From assembly GCF_038592905.1 (NCBI RefSeq), contig NZ_CP151943.1:5231871-5295870 (forward strand): DNA of 64,000 nt, in the 5' to 3' direction. Below, one piece after another: positions 32,663 through 39,703 of the stretch. How positions within the stretch are numbered: position 1 is the first letter of the stretch; every line of letters begins with the position of its first letter. The notes under the pieces were generated by a model. The model was not told where the DNA came from. It made no database searches and worked only from the letters and a program-made list of their open reading frames with translations. The stretch comes from Neobacillus sp. FSL H8-0543. Its GTDB lineage: Bacteria; Bacillota; Bacilli; Bacillales; Cytobacillaceae. The translations under genes were made by a program, and so were the position numbers.

Positions 32663-33086
32663 ATGATGTGGACAACGTATTTATTTCAACAAGAAATTCA
32701 GCTTTATTACAGACACCGATATGATGGGTGTCATTTACCATGCGAATTATTTAAAGTTTTTGAGCTTGGCAGAACAGGATTAATTGAAGATTTAGGCTAC
32801 AGTTATCTTGAAATGGAAAACTCGGGGTATTACGCTCCAGTATACGATATTCAAATAACCTATAAAAAACCATTGCGCTATGGTGATAAGGCGTATGTTA
32901 AAACCTGGGTGGACAAAAATGATGGGATTAAGACAATATATGGTTATTCCATTTAATGGAGAGGACGAGTATGTGCCGGGAAACTCAACACATATTATTG
33001 TCAAAAAAGATAATTTTAGACCAACATCCTTTAAGAAGACATTCCCGGAATGGTTCTTGAAGTATGAGGAAATAAAGAAAAAGTAA
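32663..33086 (+). pseudogene. yneP: YneP-like acyl-CoA thioesterase, frameshifted
   Basis: Hot-dog thioesterase of the YbgC/YneP type, broken by at least three indels. The catalytic region D-T-D-M-M-G-V-I-Y-H-A-N-Y-L-K is readable only in a frame different from the start (about 32715-32757). FELGRTGLIEDLGYSYLEM then resumes in the first frame, and STHIIVKKDNFRP near the end needs another shift at about 32957. The protein sequence is otherwise well kept, with little substitution damage. Next to yneQ as in B. subtilis. First member of the frameshift-rich tract. Confidence 0.8.
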
Positions 33087-33108
33087 TTTAAGCTGGGAGG
33101 ATGACTCG

Positions 33109-33406
33109 ATGGCATTTGGAATCAAGAGGCAAGAGTTAAAAGAATGGAAGAGAAAAATTGACAGCGGTGAAATTGCTTTCACTTACGCATTATTGGCTTG
33201 ATGAGCGCTTTCCAGGCTATAAAACAGTAACAAAGGTTGGGTGTCAGGATCTAAATTTGCTGGCTAAATGGGGAGAAAAGCATGGCTTAAAAAAGGAATG
33301 GATTCATCACCGACCTGATGGATATTCGCATTTCGACTTAATTGGCGCCAGACAAAAGGAGATTTTACATAAAGAAGAATTATTTAATCATATATGGGTT
33401 GAATAA
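33109..33406 (+). pseudogene. yneQ: YneQ-like protein, frameshifted
   Basis: About 99 residues, start ATG at 33109 with GGGAGGATG upstream. MAFGIKRQELKEWKRKID reads well to about 33178. A one-base excess in TTTCACTTACG then throws the frame, after which LTHYWLDERFPGYKTVTKVGCQDL continues to a proper end. The order yneP-yneQ matches B. subtilis. Function of YneQ is unknown. The single shift could be a sequencing error. Confidence 0.75.
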
Positions 33407-33426
33407 AACAAAGGAGAGGTTAAATC

Positions 33427-34342
33427 GTGCTGAAAATAGGGATGATTGGTTTAGGGGATATTGCTCAAAAAGCTTATTTTACCCGTAATCGGTGCTCTAG
33501 ATAAGGTTGGTACTATTTACAAGGAATCAGGACAAGCTGAATGAAATCAGCAGCAAATACCGGTTCCCACACATACATGATAGCCTTACATCTTTAATTG
33601 AAAGCGGAATTAAAGGGGCATTTGTCCATTCTGCTACTGATTCACATGAGGAAATTGTAGAGAGTTATTACTGAATAACATCCATGTTTACGTTGACAAA
33701 CCGATTACCTATTATTATGAAACTGCAAAGAATCTGGTGGAGTTAGCGAAACCAGAACTTAATTCTCATGACTGGTTTTAATAGAAGATTTGCCCCTAAC
33801 TATAAGTCAATGAAACAGGTTTCTGATATCAATATGGTTATTTTACAAAAAAATCGTATTTCTCTTCCGAGTGATGCCCGGACCTTTGTCTACGATGACT
33901 TTATTCATTGTTTGGATACTGTTCGGTTTCTTATCCAGGATGAGATTGAAGATATTTTGGTTGCAGGGAGAAAGAAGGATGGACTGCTCTATCATGTGAC
34001 TGTTCAATTGCTTACCAAGGATTTAACTGTCATTGCAATTATGAATCGGGATAGCGGGATCGTTGAAGAACGCCTTGAGGTCATGGGACCTAAAGAAAAA
34101 GAGTAGTAACGGATTTATCTGAGATGACTATTTATAAAGAAGGGAAAGAAACAAAGCATTCCTTTAACAACTGGGACTCGACATTATATAAGCGAGGATT
34201 TGAACATATTATCGCTGAATTTATCGAGGCGGTTCGGACAAATAAATCTCCATCCCTCACTGCAAATGATGCATTAAAAACACACGAACTTTGTGAAGAA
34301 GTAGTCAAACGTTTAGAATGTCTTAAAGATAAACACACCTGA
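33427..34342 (+). pseudogene. Gfo/Idh/MocA oxidoreductase, frameshifted
   Basis: NAD(P)-dependent sugar/inositol dehydrogenase-like gene of normal length (about 305 codons). The start reads VLKIGMIGLGDIAQKAYF, the Rossmann motif. An extra T near 33480 shifts the frame before PVIGALDK. Further breaks lie near 33520, 33670, 33760 and 34100. The YVDKPITYYYE segment and TGFNRRFAPNYK (33765 on) are diagnostic of the family. The last part, HIIAEFIEAVRTNKSPSLTANDAL, is intact. Substrate unknown. Confidence 0.8.
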
Positions 34343-34368: not shown

Positions 34369-34637
34369 CTATAACCATTGGCTGTGTTATTGGACATTGT
34401 TAATTTTGGTGTACCATCAGGAAAGTGCCAATTTATAACGCTAATCCCTATGATTCAATACTTTCTTAATGAGCTTTGTATTTATTTGTCAACGTAAAAT
34501 GGCTTCTAGTTTTGGATACTCAATTGCTTTATCTATAGTAAATATTTTGAGTTAGACATGAGTATTTCAATCTTTTTTCAGACTCTTTTGATATTATTAA
34601 AGTAAACAGGACTGTAAATGAAGAAGGTGTGTACTTA
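34369..34637. other. Upstream region of the two-component genes
   Basis: About 270 bases with no gene. A promoter-like TTGATATTATTAAAGTAAACAG lies near 34587 but a clear -10 is not evident. Confidence 0.35.
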
Positions 34638-35315
34638 ATGAATATCTTATTTGCAGAAGATGATGAGGGTTTAGGAAAGTTGATTTTCCATTTACTGAAG
34701 AAAGAATTTCACAGAGTGGATTGGGTAAAGGACGGTCAAAGTGCCTATGAATACGCCATGTTGACTAATTATGATGTGATAATTCTTGATTGGATGATGC
34801 CTCAACTATGTGGAATGGAAGCATGCAAAAATATTAGAAAAAAAGGCTATAAAGGCGGAATTATATTTCTTACAGCCAAGGATTCTTTGGAGGATGTTGC
34901 CGGGATTAGACTCAGGTGCGGATGATTATCTTATCAAGCCTTTTAAGTTTGAGGAACTTGCAGCTAGGCTTCGGGCACTGTCGCGAAGGACTGAGAAACC
35001 TTTTGAAGAAATGCTTTCAATGGATGATTTGCATTTGCATCTAAATACACATGTTGTAAAACGTAATGGACAGGTAATTGAACTATCAAGGAAGGAATAT
35101 GAGTTATTGGAATTAATGCTCCGTAACAAGCACCAAGTTCTAACTAGAGAAATTATTATTGAAAGAATTTGGGGTTTGAAGTGGATATAACAGAAAATGC
35201 TCTCGATGCTTTGGTTAAGCTGGTTCGGAAAAAAGTGGACTAGCCCGGCAAGCCCTCTATTATCAAGAATATTAGAGGCGTTGGCTATAAATTGAGGGAA
35301 ACCAATGGAATTTAA
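34638..35315 (+). pseudogene. OmpR-family response regulator, frameshifted
   Basis: Receiver plus winged-helix DNA-binding regulator. Receiver residues are seen: the acidic pair in FAEDDEG, phospho-acceptor Asp in VIILDWMMPQ, and the lysine in YLIKPFKFEE. The frame is lost at an extra G near 34903 (GCCGGGATTAG), again by a missing T near 35174 (TTGGGGTTTGAAG), and a TAG sits where a leucine is expected near 35240. The end, KPSIIKNIRGVGYKLRE, is typical. Start ATG with a GAAGAAGGTG site. Its last codons overlap the kinase start. Confidence 0.85.
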
Positions 35316-36577
35316 ACCAGTTAAATCAAAACTTAACCAGATTTATACAGGTTCGCTGCTATTTATTTTAATGATTTTTATCACGGTGTTATATATTTTT
35401 ATTTCTGGAGCGATAAAAAATCAGGAAATCGAACAATTAAACCGTTTTTACGAAAAGGAAAAACATAAGAATTTGCAGAAGAGATATATAAAGACAAGCA
35501 TGAGCGAGCAGAAGAAGAATATGAAGATGATCATAAATATGAACATGTGGAATATAAACCGGAAAGGGATATGTTCTACTATGTAATTGATAGCAGTCTT
35601 AATATGGTAGAGGGAGAGGAGACAGTAAGTGGTTTAGCGCAGTATATCTGGGAAAAACCTCCATTCTCAATCTTCGAAATATATTGAAGAAGTAGAATGG
35701 AAGAAGACATCTGCTTTTAATAAATTATTCCCTCCGAAGATGATGAAATTTCCGGAACCGTCATCATCGGTATGGATATAACAGATGAAAAGCATTTAAT
35801 TCAAAATATTATATTGATTCTCCTGCTACTAACTCTTTTGTTCAGTTTACTATTTGCCGTGGCAGGCAACTTTTTTGCAGGACAGGCAATGAAACCCATC
35901 CAGAAAGCCTTCCAAACCCAACGAAAATTTGTCTCAGATGCTTCACATGAACTTAGAACCCCTTGAGCATCTTTTATAGCTCTATAGATGTACTTGCCAG
36001 GGAGGAACAGGAGTATTTAAGCCCATTTGGGAGGCAGATTTTAGAGGATGTCAAAAATGAATCTGAAATGATGAATAAACTGCTCAATGATTTATTGTTT
36101 TTGGCAAGAAATGATCGGGGTATTGTTGAATTGATTTAGAAGAACTGGATCTTTCCTCTCTTCTTCATTCTTTGTTAAATAGATTTAAAAGGATTGTTCC
36201 ACCCCATTTGTCTCTTGATGATAAGATTCAAAAAGGCGTCGTTATGAAGGGAGACAAGGTCAGAATCCAGCAGCTAGTATATATATTATTAGACAATGCT
36301 GTTCGGTATACAAAGGAAGGTTCTATTACATGTTCATTAACATTACAAGGAAAGGAAATAGTGATAGGTATAAAAGACACCGGACCTGGTATTCCTCAGG
36401 ATGATATAAGCCATATTTTCGACCGTTTTTATCGAGGGGATTTATCGAGAAAAAGATGGTTCAGGTCTTGGTCTGTCCATTGCGAAAACCATCATAGATG
36501 CCCATGGAGGGAAAATTGAAGTGAAAAGCGAGATGGGGAGAGGAACTGAATTTTTTATTAGCTTTAATAAAAAATAA
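35305..36577 (+). pseudogene. Membrane sensor histidine kinase, frameshifted
   Basis: Partner kinase. Two membrane segments (about 35340-35410 and 35800-35880) flank an extracytoplasmic part rich in E, K, D and H. Then come a HAMP-less dimerisation helix with SDASHELRTP (phospho-His, about 35935), the N box DNAVRYTKEG (36290) and G1 DTGPGIPQDD. The G2 box [13 protein letters not shown] occurs only after a further shift near 36455. At least four indels. The sensor part is acidic/His-rich, which would suit metal sensing, but this is inference. Confidence 0.85.
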
Positions 36578-36606
36578 AAACGCCGGTATTTTTTACGGCG
36601 TTTTTT
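36578..36606. terminator. Bidirectional terminator
   Basis: AACGCCG/CGGCGTT with a 9-base loop and T-run, between the kinase and the convergent membrane gene. Confidence 0.85.
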
Positions 36607-36634
36607 CACCACTCCTTTTTTGCTATTCTTTGAT

Positions 36635-37166
36635 TCACTGCGGCTCTCTAGATACCGAAAAAGCCATTAGGATCATAACCAAAATGATCCCTCCACCATA
36701 TACGGAGGCAGCCCATGGTTGAGCAGAATCTGTGCCAATGAGGATGCCATGGAGGATCATCAGGATCCATGCAGGTATAACGAGAAAGTGAATCCTTTTC
36801 CATAATGCACGTCCTAATGTTTTTATGAAAAAATCTGATGTGGCCAGTGTCAGCAAAAATAAATAATAGGATATTGTGCCGAGTGCTGAAAAGACCGGGT
36901 CATTTTTGGCTAAAAATGGGATAAATATTTCTCGGATTTGATAAGGAACATATTGATCCATCAAAAGTAATACAGCATGAAATACAACCGTCAGCATTCC
37001 TGTCCATCCACTTATTTTATGCATTTCCAGCAGAAGCAGCTTTTGTTTTTTTGAGACTGAATAAACGGCTCATCAAACCAGCTGCGACGGAAAATGTAAA
37101 AAGGAAATAGGCCAGAAAGCCGGATGTACGGATTAAATTCCAAGTGGAAAGCAAATCAAAGTTCAT
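36635..37166 (-). pseudogene. Ferric-reductase-like diheme membrane protein, one frameshift
   Basis: About 175-residue protein with five or six membrane segments. Two helices carry histidine pairs spaced for two stacked b hemes: EMHKISGWTGMLTVVFHAV (14 apart) and RIHFLVIPAWILMILHG (13 apart). This is the pattern of ferric reductase/NOX-type transmembrane domains. The first 43 residues (from ATG 37166) and the rest are in different frames, joined near 37040 at a run of A/T. No flavin or NAD domain is attached. Its ATG overlaps the end of the ApbE-like gene, so it belongs to that operon. Confidence 0.75.
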
Positions 37167-38115
37167 TTTTCACATCCTTGAATCTCAATTTCTCCACTTG
37201 TTTTCACAAGAATACAACTAAATTTAGGACTGATCTTTGAAGAACTGATTTTACAGTCTTCATATTGTCCATAAAACATATTTTTGCGCTGACTTCAGCG
37301 TCCAGGCAATGCTCCGTCAGAACCGTTGCTTGGACTATATCTGTAGCTGCAGGCATTCCGGTTCTTCCATCCAAAATATGATGTTTTTGGACTCACCCTG
37401 CATCCAGCTTCTATAAATGATATTGGATGTTGCAATTCCTCCATTTTTGATAAAAAAACCGATATGTTTTTCTTCGTCAAAAGGGTCCATAACTCCAATT
37501 TTCCAGGTTTTATCGCCATTTGACCACATTGCCATATCACCGCCTCCGTCGACAATTCCGTACTTGCTGTGAGTGTGCTTTGCAACCATTTAGAGACAGC
37601 TTCTACGGCATAGCCTTTAACCAATCCCGCCAAGGTCAATTTTTTGATCGGTTTTCTTAATGATCTGACAGCCTTCTTTAAAAAATAGGAGCCTTCCATT
37701 TATTTTGATATTGGATAATTGTCGCTTCATGATGGGCAGTCTTAAAGGGAAGGATTGATTATAACCGTGTGCTTCCAGCTGTGTCAGTATATAGGGCGAA
37801 AATCGTCCCCCCGTTATCAACCGATATTTCTCAGCCTTTCTTAAAAGGTCAAAAAGAATGGGGGAAACAACGACAACTGAATCCCTTTTTGCTTCATTTA
37901 ATCTTCTTAATTCATTGTCACTGCGAAATCTTGAAAATTCCCGATCCATATATTGGAGAAAGGATATGATTGTTTTTTTCCAATGCGTGTGATTTTCATT
38001 AGAAATCGCCATGTAAAAGGAAGTATTCATGATATTCAATCGAACAGAATCCATCATATTTTCATTATGTTCTTCTAGTAATACGGTCACTTTCATCTTC
38101 CCTTTGGTAATCATT
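37163..38115 (-). pseudogene. apbE: ApbE-like FAD:protein FMN transferase, frameshifted
   Basis: ApbE attaches FMN to threonine/serine of extracytoplasmic redox proteins. Seen on the minus strand: MNTSFYMAIS, FSRFRSDNELRRLNEA, the SPY-like FSPYILTQLEA region, IDLGGIG (then a shift) KGYAVEAVSKWLQ, GGGDMAMWSNGDKTWKIGVMDP, and HHILDGRTGMPAATDIVQATVLTE in yet another frame, the ApbE metal and substrate motifs. At least three indels. The final codons overlap the ATG of the diheme gene. It may begin farther upstream if the 84-residue frame before it (38319) is really its membrane anchor. Confidence 0.85.
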
Positions 38116-38319
38116 TGCTTGAAAAGAAAAATCGCTCCAATCAAGCTGGACAAGCTCTTTTTCCCGTTTACTCATAGAATCACTTATGTCTGCTGCTGTT
38201 AGTGTTGTATTCATTTTATCAGTAGGATTTGGATTATTGTTTAATTGACCGATCACAAAAGCAGAAAATGCAGCCCCTGAGATTCCGACAATCCATTTTG
38301 CTTTATTGTTCACTTTCAT
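38065..38319 (-). CDS. Short membrane-anchored protein or anchor of ApbE
   Basis: 84-residue frame with one hydrophobic segment at about residues 9-26 and a polar remainder. An AAGAGGTGA ribosome site precedes the ATG. The frame ends inside the start of the ApbE-like sequence in another frame. ApbE proteins usually have an N-terminal anchor, so this may be its 5-prime part cut off by a shift near 38100. Alternatively it is a separate small protein. I see no FMN-acceptor motif. Confidence 0.5.
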   Translation of the reverse strand: MKVNNKAKWIVGISGAAFSAFVIGQLNNNPNPTDKMNTTLTAADISDSMSKREKELVQLDWSDFSFQANDYQREDESDRITRRT

Positions 38320-38332
38320 ACAGTTTCACCTC

Positions 38333-39004
38333 TTATAAAATTTCTTTAAGTGTAATGGTTCCTTTTTCTTCATTCCAGTTCACTCTATAACCGAATGCGT
38401 TTGCTATCACTGATATGGGCAGAAAGATAGAGTTCTCAAAATGAAGAGCTTTTGCAGGCATTGGCGTTTTAACCATATTCTCATAAGCTGCATTTGAACC
38501 TGCACGGACAAACAGTTCCTCCTTATCATTTGAAATCTCAAGAATCTGGCTTTGCTTGTAAAATTTGTACTTAATACCAAAAAGCTGGGCCATTTTTTCA
38601 CCTGAAACGAGCAATTGGCCGTTTACGGGTACCACATAAAGACTTTCACTTTTTCCGTTCATTTCAACTGGAACTTCTTTAGCCTCCTGAAAAGGAAGAT
38701 TTTCTGTTAAGAAAGTGCTTGTATCTTTTGTCCAAACATTCCAATACGATTGTTGAAGTTGAGTTTCTTGATAGAGGGTACGTTGTTCGGCTTCCGCCGA
38801 GTCATCGTCATCTTGCCATTCATATTCCTCATCGACCCAATTATCATACTCTTCATCATCATCCCACTCATCTCTTTCATAGCTTTCATGCTCCTCATGT
38901 TCGTCACGACCATAATCGTCATCAGCCTTTACAATATTGACTGATTGAAAAATCAGAAAGAGAACGAACAGCGATAGGGTCCACTTAAATATCCTTGTTT
39001 TCAC
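38333..39004 (-). CDS. Exported acidic protein with copper-amine-oxidase-N-like stalk domain
   Basis: 223 residues. A signal peptide (about 1-27, ending in VKADD) is followed by an extremely acidic, tyrosine- and tryptophan-containing stretch to about residue 75. Next comes a linker and, from about 105 to the end, a domain with VVPVNGQLLVSGEKMAQLFG, FLPISVIANAFGYRVNWNEEKGTITL. That repeat is the copper amine oxidase N-terminal-like (stalk) domain found on many exported bacillar proteins. First gene of the leftward operon with apbE and the diheme protein. The acidic part could bind metal ions. GGAGGTGG site upstream. Confidence 0.75.
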   Translation of the reverse strand: MKTRIFKWTLSLFVLFLIFQSVNIVKADDDYGRDEHEEHESYERDEWDDDEEYDNWVDEEYEWQDDDDSAEAEQRTLYQETQLQQSYWNVWTKDTSTFLTENLPFQEAKEVPVEMNGKSESLYVVPVNGQLLVSGEKMAQLFGIKYKFYKQSQILEISNDKEELFVRAGSNAAYENMVKTPMPAKALHFENSIFLPISVIANAFGYRVNWNEEKGTITLKEIL

Positions 39005-39151
39005 CTATTCCACCTCCTTGTAAAACATATTAATCATTATTTCTGAAAAAAAAATGAAAGTCGGAAATAATAAACAAAATGTTTTTCAGACGTTTTTCAT
39101 TTTCAGAGTCTATTCTAAAGACATTAAATCGTTATTTATAAGGAGATTTTT

Positions 39152-39703
39152 ATGAAGAATTTGAAAATGTTTCTCATCTCAATTTTATTTGTCTTTGGAC
39201 TTAGTTACGTAGTAATAGAAAGCAACCAGGTTTCGGCAGATGATGATTTTGAAGAAAAATATGAAATCCATGAGGAGGATGATGACGAAGAAGGAACTTA
39301 TGAAGAAATAGGCAAAACGATTGGCTGGGGTACGGTCATTGCAATGGGAGCTGCTGGGTTAATATTTCCGATTAGAAGATCAGCGAAATGGATCATAACA
39401 AATTATCCAAAATCGAAAAACATTTTTATATCTATTTCTAAGTTTTTGGGAAAATATCATTTGTATTTAGGATTAATTGCCTTGGCATTGAGTATTTTTC
39501 ATGGAGTTGCTATGTATCTGAGTGAAGGGAAATTGGAAAGTGAAGGGATTATTGGATTAGGAGCAGTCATTTTTATGATGATTGCTGGCATTCTTGGAAC
39601 GGTCTTATTCAGGAACAAAAAAGTGAACATTCTTCGAACCACACATACGACTTTGATAGCTTTTGCACTTCTTATCGGATTTGTTCATATAATTACCTCC
39701 TAG
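39152..39703 (+). CDS. Diheme-type membrane protein with acidic N-terminal segment
   Basis: 183 residues. A signal or first helix (about 5-22) is followed by an acidic stretch (about 30-52, DDDFEEKYEIHEEDDDEE), then four membrane segments. Two carry histidine pairs 14 apart: HLYLGLIALALSIFHG and HTTLIAFALLIGFVH, the spacing for two b-type hemes, as in the unlike protein at 36635. Divergent from the acidic stalk-domain gene, 147 bases away. AAGGAG precedes the ATG. Probably a transmembrane electron carrier. I do not recognise a named family with certainty. Confidence 0.65.
   Translation: MKNLKMFLISILFVFGLSYVVIESNQVSADDDFEEKYEIHEEDDDEEGTYEEIGKTIGWGTVIAMGAAGLIFPIRRSAKWIITNYPKSKNIFISISKFLGKYHLYLGLIALALSIFHGVAMYLSEGKLESEGIIGLGAVIFMMIAGILGTVLFRNKKVNILRTTHTTLIAFALLIGFVHIITS

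Follow-up and report, generated by a model that had tools for sequence, protein, structure and literature searches.

What does the ApbE-family flavin mononucleotide (FMN) transferase encoded in a stretch of Neobacillus sp. FSL H8-0543 DNA modify? The stretch, hereafter the window, is 64,000 nucleotides long (NZ_CP151943.1, positions 5,231,871 to 5,295,870). It holds a leftward gene set for an acidic exported protein, a small one-helix membrane anchor, ApbE, and a diheme membrane protein, with which a response regulator/sensor kinase pair converges. A preliminary description had recognized this arrangement, and domain matches and reading frames bear it out, for the leftward set as well as for the regulator and kinase, both of which are in pieces. 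It had also stated that no protein with a flavin-acceptor motif lies in the window. That statement is not upheld, since the tail of the small anchor fits the spacing of the motif. From sequence comparison, we consider it probable that the 84-residue anchor is the flavin acceptor of ApbE and is modified through its C-terminal tail.

The published minimal ApbE motif spans seven residues, D-x-x-[S/T]-G-A-[S/T], with FMN on the last (PMC12052999). The window anchor ends D-R-I-T-R-R-T, which has the same spacing. Its close relatives, with few exceptions, end D-R-x-[TS]-[RS]-R-[ST] (RRS form). Among ApbE relatives scoring below 135 bits in a search with the ApbE of Bacillus timonensis (locus L015), a second form (TGGT) has a small anchor ending F-D-T-T-T-G-G-T ahead of ApbE and a diheme gene; the anchors of some relatives end exactly T-G-A-S. 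We collected 123 ApbE loci (L015 and L060 to L181) and divided them into 104 tail loci and 19 others by a downstream open reading frame (ORF) of 130 to 240 amino acids, not by the tail, with L073, L083, L103, and L119 added and L139, L140, and L148 removed by hand. The anchor was picked by rule as the longest upstream hydrophobic ORF other than that of the acidic protein with a copper-amine-oxidase-N (CuNIN) domain; the anchors of L087 and L091 were manual additions. At L125, the rule gave no anchor; the frame seems interrupted there, and a start and an FDTTTGGT tail can be read. Of the 103 anchors, 94 had Ser or Thr last, 87 ended in [ST]xx[ST], and 75 ended in [DE]xx[ST]xx[ST], compared with 49, 3, and 1, respectively, of 593 background ORFs, which were called mechanically. 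Many anchor rows are close kin and the events are non-independent; the 103 tails comprise 51 distinct strings of eight terminal residues. The string [ST]GA[ST] lay one residue in from the end in 1 of the 103 anchors.

The tail pattern persists in many families at the order and class levels, and anchors of this sort occur in many spore-forming bacteria. Among 24 nonduplicate class-level anchors (four duplicates excluded; no anchor picked at L193 or L199), 23 ended in [ST]xx[ST] and 4 in exact [ST]GA[ST]; only 4 had Asp or Glu at position −7. For the pooled 127 anchors, Ser or Thr stood at −1 in 117 and at −4 in 112, and Asp or Glu stood at −7 in 81. Conservation was concentrated at the end of the protein: mean pairwise identity among the 46 RRS-type anchors, from 600 sampled pairs, was 0.39 in the helix, 0.30 in the linker, and 0.66 in the last seven residues. 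An SGAA string in the anchor helix was also considered as a flavin site and was rejected, as it lies inside the membrane helix and the Ser/Thr that follows it is not kept.

The L015 ApbE matched PF02424 at 147.4 bits (cut-off, 25.6), and ApbE proteins in PDB were matched down to an E value of 3.1e-21. The window genome's copy, at the sole ApbE locus found in that genome, scored 79.6 bits across its broken frame. The catalytic Ser and His were invariant in all 123 ApbE rows. Characterized ApbEs usually carry an export signal or lipid anchor. A hydrophobic N-terminal 15-mer was present in only 1 of the 104 tail-locus ApbEs, by a crude hydropathy test rather than a signal-peptide predictor. The preliminary description had proposed an extracytoplasmic redox system; an extracytoplasmic carrier is supported, whereas an extracytoplasmic ApbE is not, given this single hydrophobic N terminus. 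At the phylum level, 191 of 398 genomes gave a match, and 24 loci were read. Twelve of these have a strongly hydrophobic ApbE N terminus, none with a diheme neighbor. A tail together with a diheme gene occurred at L222 and L223, two further tail cases from outside the class, and at L229, with L225 and L227 as repeats. At L226 and L231 of the same 24 loci, there was a larger diheme protein and no tail was recognized, and nothing clear was found at L224, L235, L238, L241, or L245. Separately, the ApbEs of L143, L150, L179, and L181 lie beside FMN_bind-type anchored proteins (identified by position for the first two and by eye for the last two) and have no hydrophobic N terminus; the N-terminal helix is on the partner instead. 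Where flavinylation takes place may be a wider question in Bacilli.

Anchor, enzyme, and diheme gene occur together. The window-type anchor was found in 30 of 193 genomes, beside ApbE in all 30. In the same 193 genomes, with lists compiled by hand from search results, tail-type ApbE and the diheme gene were both present in 64, ApbE alone in 1, the diheme gene alone in 2, and neither in 126. In G030, G125, and G126, where the set lacks a diheme gene, one is present elsewhere in the genome. We also observed split systems in which anchor and ApbE lie apart from the diheme gene (L103 with L217, L073 with L219, and L083 with L218). G027 has no tail-type ApbE at the cut-off and an anchor cut off after the helix; one deletion could account for both losses. 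On a quick ApbE tree of 122 rows, the nine tail groups required 9 changes (minimum, 8; mean after shuffling, 67.9), an agreement compatible with co-evolution of tail and enzyme. Two ApbE columns with acidic residues appeared to track RRS tails (at L015 residue 215, Glu or Asp in 44 of 46 RRS and 0 of 29 TGGT rows); we did not use them, as they are confounded by descent.

The gene set itself is real and is conserved in other bacilli. All seven genes are intact in B. timonensis, in the order and orientation of the window, so the arrangement is more than chance. The L015 ApbE search of 193 family genomes gave 29 hits of at least 277 bits, with the rest at or below 135 bits; the broken copy of the window scored 314 bits. 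In the 28 close-ApbE Bacillaceae genomes other than the window's own, the acidic protein and anchor were present in all 28, regulator and kinase in 27 (the contig of the 28th is only 4 kb), and a local diheme gene in 26. The preliminary description would have been refuted by relatives that never carry these genes together, and these genomes answer that test in its favor. Single copies are split in their own assemblies at L068 (ApbE), L075 (acidic protein), and L079 (diheme gene). The CuNIN protein follows the tail type, with 43 of 46 RRS loci, 0 of 29 TGGT loci, 1 of 28 loci with tails of another type, and none of the 19 remaining ApbE loci; its profile was built from 29 close loci, and at RRS loci outside these, it was found in 15 of 18. 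The preliminary description had included the divergent second diheme-type protein in the system. That gene is present (Table 1), with its His pairs, but its membership of the unit was not confirmed: we rejected it as a core component, since only in the window and in L015 does it lie next to the set. Close relatives of it occur away from the set in three other genomes of 61 searched in the genus (G024, G031, and G021; one copy is broken), and weaker ones occur in nine more. This family of acidic exported four-helix diheme proteins (also L016, L017, and L018) is mostly encoded by a lone gene.

Table 1. Genes and features of the window locus, with the evidence for each (intact relatives are from L015)
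Feature	Position	Strand	State and evidence
OmpR-type response regulator	34629..35190	+	Overlapping pieces 34629-34925 and 34810-35190; end out of frame; Response_reg and Trans_reg_C on separate pieces; intact relative L015:2511-3191
Sensor histidine kinase	35305..36519	+	Several pieces; HisKA and HATPase_c on separate pieces; intact relative L015:3175-4452
MsrQ-like diheme membrane protein	36635..37166	-	Two pieces; PF01794, E 4.4e-6 (larger piece)
ApbE-family FMN transferase	37204..38153	-	Three pieces; PF02424 on each
One-helix anchor, 84 amino acids; proposed flavin acceptor	38065..38319	-	Intact; 67% identity to L015 anchor, open frame; helix N-terminal
Final seven codons of anchor, D-R-I-T-R-R-T; proposed flavinylation tail	38068..38088	-	Sequence and family statistics
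Acidic exported protein; long acidic stretch, C-terminal CuNIN (stalk) domain	38333..39004	-	Intact; PF07833, E 3.1e-16
Divergent acidic exported four-helix diheme-type protein; loose neighbor	39152..39703	+	Intact; PF01794, E 2.9e-4, below cut-off

The window's own copy of the set may have no present function. We regard it as an even question whether the set in this strain is a decaying pseudogene cluster. Four of its genes are broken, and the genome search yielded neither another ApbE nor another diheme gene of this type. The window, which lies at the end of the single 5.3-Mb contig, has its lowest coverage by ORFs of at least 150 amino acids at 32 to 40 kb (0.28, the minimum of eight 8-kb blocks). 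Coverage is also low at 16 to 24 kb (0.39) and 24 to 32 kb (0.52) and is 0.66 to 0.83 in the remaining five blocks; the median over the loci of 42 relatives is 0.77. Just left of the set (32663-34342), genes that look by eye like those for a thioesterase and an oxidoreductase also appear frame-split, so the damage extends beyond the set. However, the anchor, the acidic protein, and the divergent diheme gene are open, and a local assembly problem would look alike; either genuine decay or an assembly error could have produced the frame breaks. We left the broken frames unmended and used intact relatives for the analysis. Decay in this one strain would leave the family-wide reading untouched.

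Two His pairs characterize the diheme protein. The preliminary description gave their spacing as 13 to 14 residues, and the translations agree (14 and 13 in the protein at 36635-37166; both 14 in the divergent one). Two such pairs were found in an ORF of 120 to 260 amino acids at 122 of 130 loci; the control value, 13 of 73 ORFs, has an upward bias, because the loci behind it were selected for having diheme relatives. The intact L015 relative matched PF01794 at 33.1 bits (cut-off, 28) and has no domain that binds nicotinamide adenine dinucleotide (NAD). We rejected a DUF4405 cytochrome, since neither L015 membrane protein matches PF14358 and the one weak match in the window's genome lies elsewhere. 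Predicted structures of the two membrane proteins had a mean predicted local distance difference test score (pLDDT) of 50.7 for one (the L015 protein and two separate window pieces) and 46.5 for the other (window and L015), and the models were set aside as too poor for topology. At L220:392-2120 (G141), beside a lone diheme gene, frames are full of one repeated string, which looks like translated clustered regularly interspaced short palindromic repeats (CRISPR).

For the anchor, Lys and Arg are more numerous on the N-terminal side of the helix than after it in 100 of 103 cases. The linkers, of 41 to 211 residues, contain 5% Lys and Arg and 56% Asn, Gln, Ser, Thr, Gly, and Pro. Charge bias and linker composition lead us to read the anchor as a tether with its N terminus inside and its C terminus outside, and the tail probably lies outside the membrane. 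Alternatively, the tail could be cytosolic and be flavinylated there. It would then take electrons from cytosolic reductases and deliver them to the hemes, in the role that the flavin adenine dinucleotide (FAD)/NAD domain, missing here, has in a ferric reductase. The lack of a hydrophobic ApbE N terminus at 103 of 104 loci and of an NAD-binding domain in the diheme protein would suit such an arrangement, and in Klebsiella an ApbE and its target are both known to be cytosolic (PMC12052999). However, the positive-inside rule predicts an outside C terminus for those 100 anchors, and the linkers, poor in Lys and Arg and proline-rich in L196, resemble wall linkers. We therefore consider a cytosolic tail unlikely.

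The tail might instead be no substrate at all, reflecting an overlapping apbE ribosome-binding site and start or contact with another protein, while ApbE modifies something else. The TGGT form gives some reason for this view: all 27 of 27 such tails hold a Shine-Dalgarno-like string, the final codon is always ACC, and the tail overlaps the apbE ribosome-binding site, so that constraints on the DNA could account for the G-G and the final Thr. However, the D-T-T-T codons vary even there, and such a string occurs in only 11 of 46 RRS tails. Codons in the RRS form vary synonymously at the last residue (TCA, TCT, TCC, TCG, ACA, and ACG) and at −4 (ACA, ACC, ACT, ACG, and TCA). With so few ribosome-binding strings, this variation indicates that the protein, not the DNA, is conserved. 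Moreover, four paralogous anchor-diheme pairs without an adjacent ApbE (L212, L213, L214, and L216; ApbE is elsewhere in the genome) still have FDTTTGGT tails, though these ApbE losses may be recent; L212 retains what appear to be the opening codons of an ApbE. The search of the window's genome for an FMN_bind protein was negative; other known substrate families, such as DUF2271 and DUF3570, were outside its scope. A nonsubstrate tail is, in our view, quite improbable.

That the locus is an ordinary MsrQ-like flavinylation system whose carrier was missed is highly improbable: a PF01794 protein with ApbE is the published pairing (PMC8238504), but the FMN_bind gene typical of the published clusters was not detected in 17 of 36 genus genomes with tail-type ApbE, including the window's, and the published filter demanded an export signal. 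In the survey of Meheust et al. (2021), genes were excluded when no export signal was predicted, and a cluster was retained if its ApbE or a known substrate gene carried a signal peptide or lipidation site (PMC8238504); among the tail-locus ApbEs, a hydrophobic N terminus is all but absent.

Four described systems offer comparisons. The MsrQ-like systems (PMC8238504) also place ApbE beside a PF01794 diheme protein, with proposed transmembrane electron flow to a flavinylated carrier. The window set differs in having, in place of an FMN_bind carrier, a one-helix anchor with a C-terminal motif (the window anchor matched no Pfam or NCBIfam family), in the lack of an export signal on ApbE, and in the diheme protein's lack of an NAD-binding domain. 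Extracellular electron transfer in Listeria, with FmnB/PplA and FAD export by FmnA/EetB, is likewise a Gram-positive system with an ApbE-type enzyme and a membrane-held flavinylated carrier. There, however, ApbE acts outside and depends on FAD export, and PplA carries two flavinylation sites (PMC9973259), whereas we propose one terminal site and a window-type ApbE without an export signal. The Klebsiella ApbE, which also lacks a signal peptide, acts on a soluble fumarate reductase (PMC12052999) and not, as proposed here, on a membrane anchor. ApbE-linked FMN_red proteins carry the motif in a flexible or unstructured C-terminal extension, but their flavin docks back into a flavin-binding domain (PMC11334425), and the anchors show no such domain. 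In literature titles and abstracts, with supplements and subscription journals outside the scope, we found no description of a C-terminal tail substrate.

We propose that the set probably encodes a membrane-tethered, C-terminally flavinylated electron carrier that works with an MsrQ-like cytochrome. The core would be three genes, for the one-helix anchor, an ApbE without an export signal, and the MsrQ-like diheme membrane protein. ApbE would transfer FMN from FAD onto a Ser or Thr at or next to the C terminus of the anchor, which, with its N terminus inside, would carry the flavin outside on its flexible linker. Electrons from menaquinol or a cytosolic donor would enter the diheme protein and cross through its two hemes, and the tethered FMN would swing from the outer heme to a wall or surface acceptor. 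The simplest timing would be flavinylation in the cytosol, where FAD is available, with the tail crossing the membrane afterwards; we slightly favor flavinylation before export. The preliminary description had electrons passing through hemes to an exported flavin or metal acceptor. A heme-linked membrane set with ApbE is indeed conserved in bacilli; what changes is that one of its own members is probably the flavin acceptor. In the window subtype, the likely next partner would be the acidic, possibly metal-binding CuNIN protein, with the two-component pair as regulator. The CuNIN protein's stretch rich in Asp, Glu, and His and the nearest named models of the kinase, all below their cut-offs and including metal sensors among many others, give a hint of metals, no more. 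A role in metal or cell-surface reduction is a tentative suggestion, rather doubtful on balance.

Several points weigh against this proposal. Most tails have R-R, G-G, or other residues in place of the central G-A, and in a tested enzyme even single changes at these positions lowered flavinylation (PMC12052999). Sixteen of 103 anchors lack a terminal [ST]xx[ST], and several of them end ...SR or ...GGTNF. The counts are inflated by related genomes and operon inheritance, and operon inheritance alone would make the tail and ApbE trees agree. The third catalytic residue of ApbE, an Asp, was not aligned as invariant. Eleven of the 19 other Bacilli ApbEs also lack a hydrophobic N terminus, so its absence is not specific. 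A cytosolic ApbE with an outside tail requires export of a flavinylated tail, for which we know of no precedent. Finally, four genes of the window's own set (for the regulator, kinase, ApbE, and diheme protein) are frame-split in this assembly.

If the proposal is true, ApbE substrates gain a class in which the motif forms the extreme C terminus of a protein with no other features, and the site of flavinylation becomes directly testable. The proposal would also explain ApbE genes without a known partner (17 of 36 genomes). Window-type systems would tend to drop out of the published survey, because genes and clusters without an export signal were removed from it (PMC8238504). Flavinylation in the cytosol before export would reverse the accepted order, in which protein, enzyme, and FAD are exported and flavinylation follows. 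The fullest form of the reading, to which we give slightly less than an even chance, is that Bacilli and a few other Bacillota have a bitopic substrate without a folded flavin domain, whose last Ser or Thr would be flavinylated by a cytosolic ApbE; an unfolded tether would then bring the covalent flavin outside and connect it to a diheme cytochrome. The gene set may thus represent a hitherto undescribed kind of electron carrier, a flavin on a tether.

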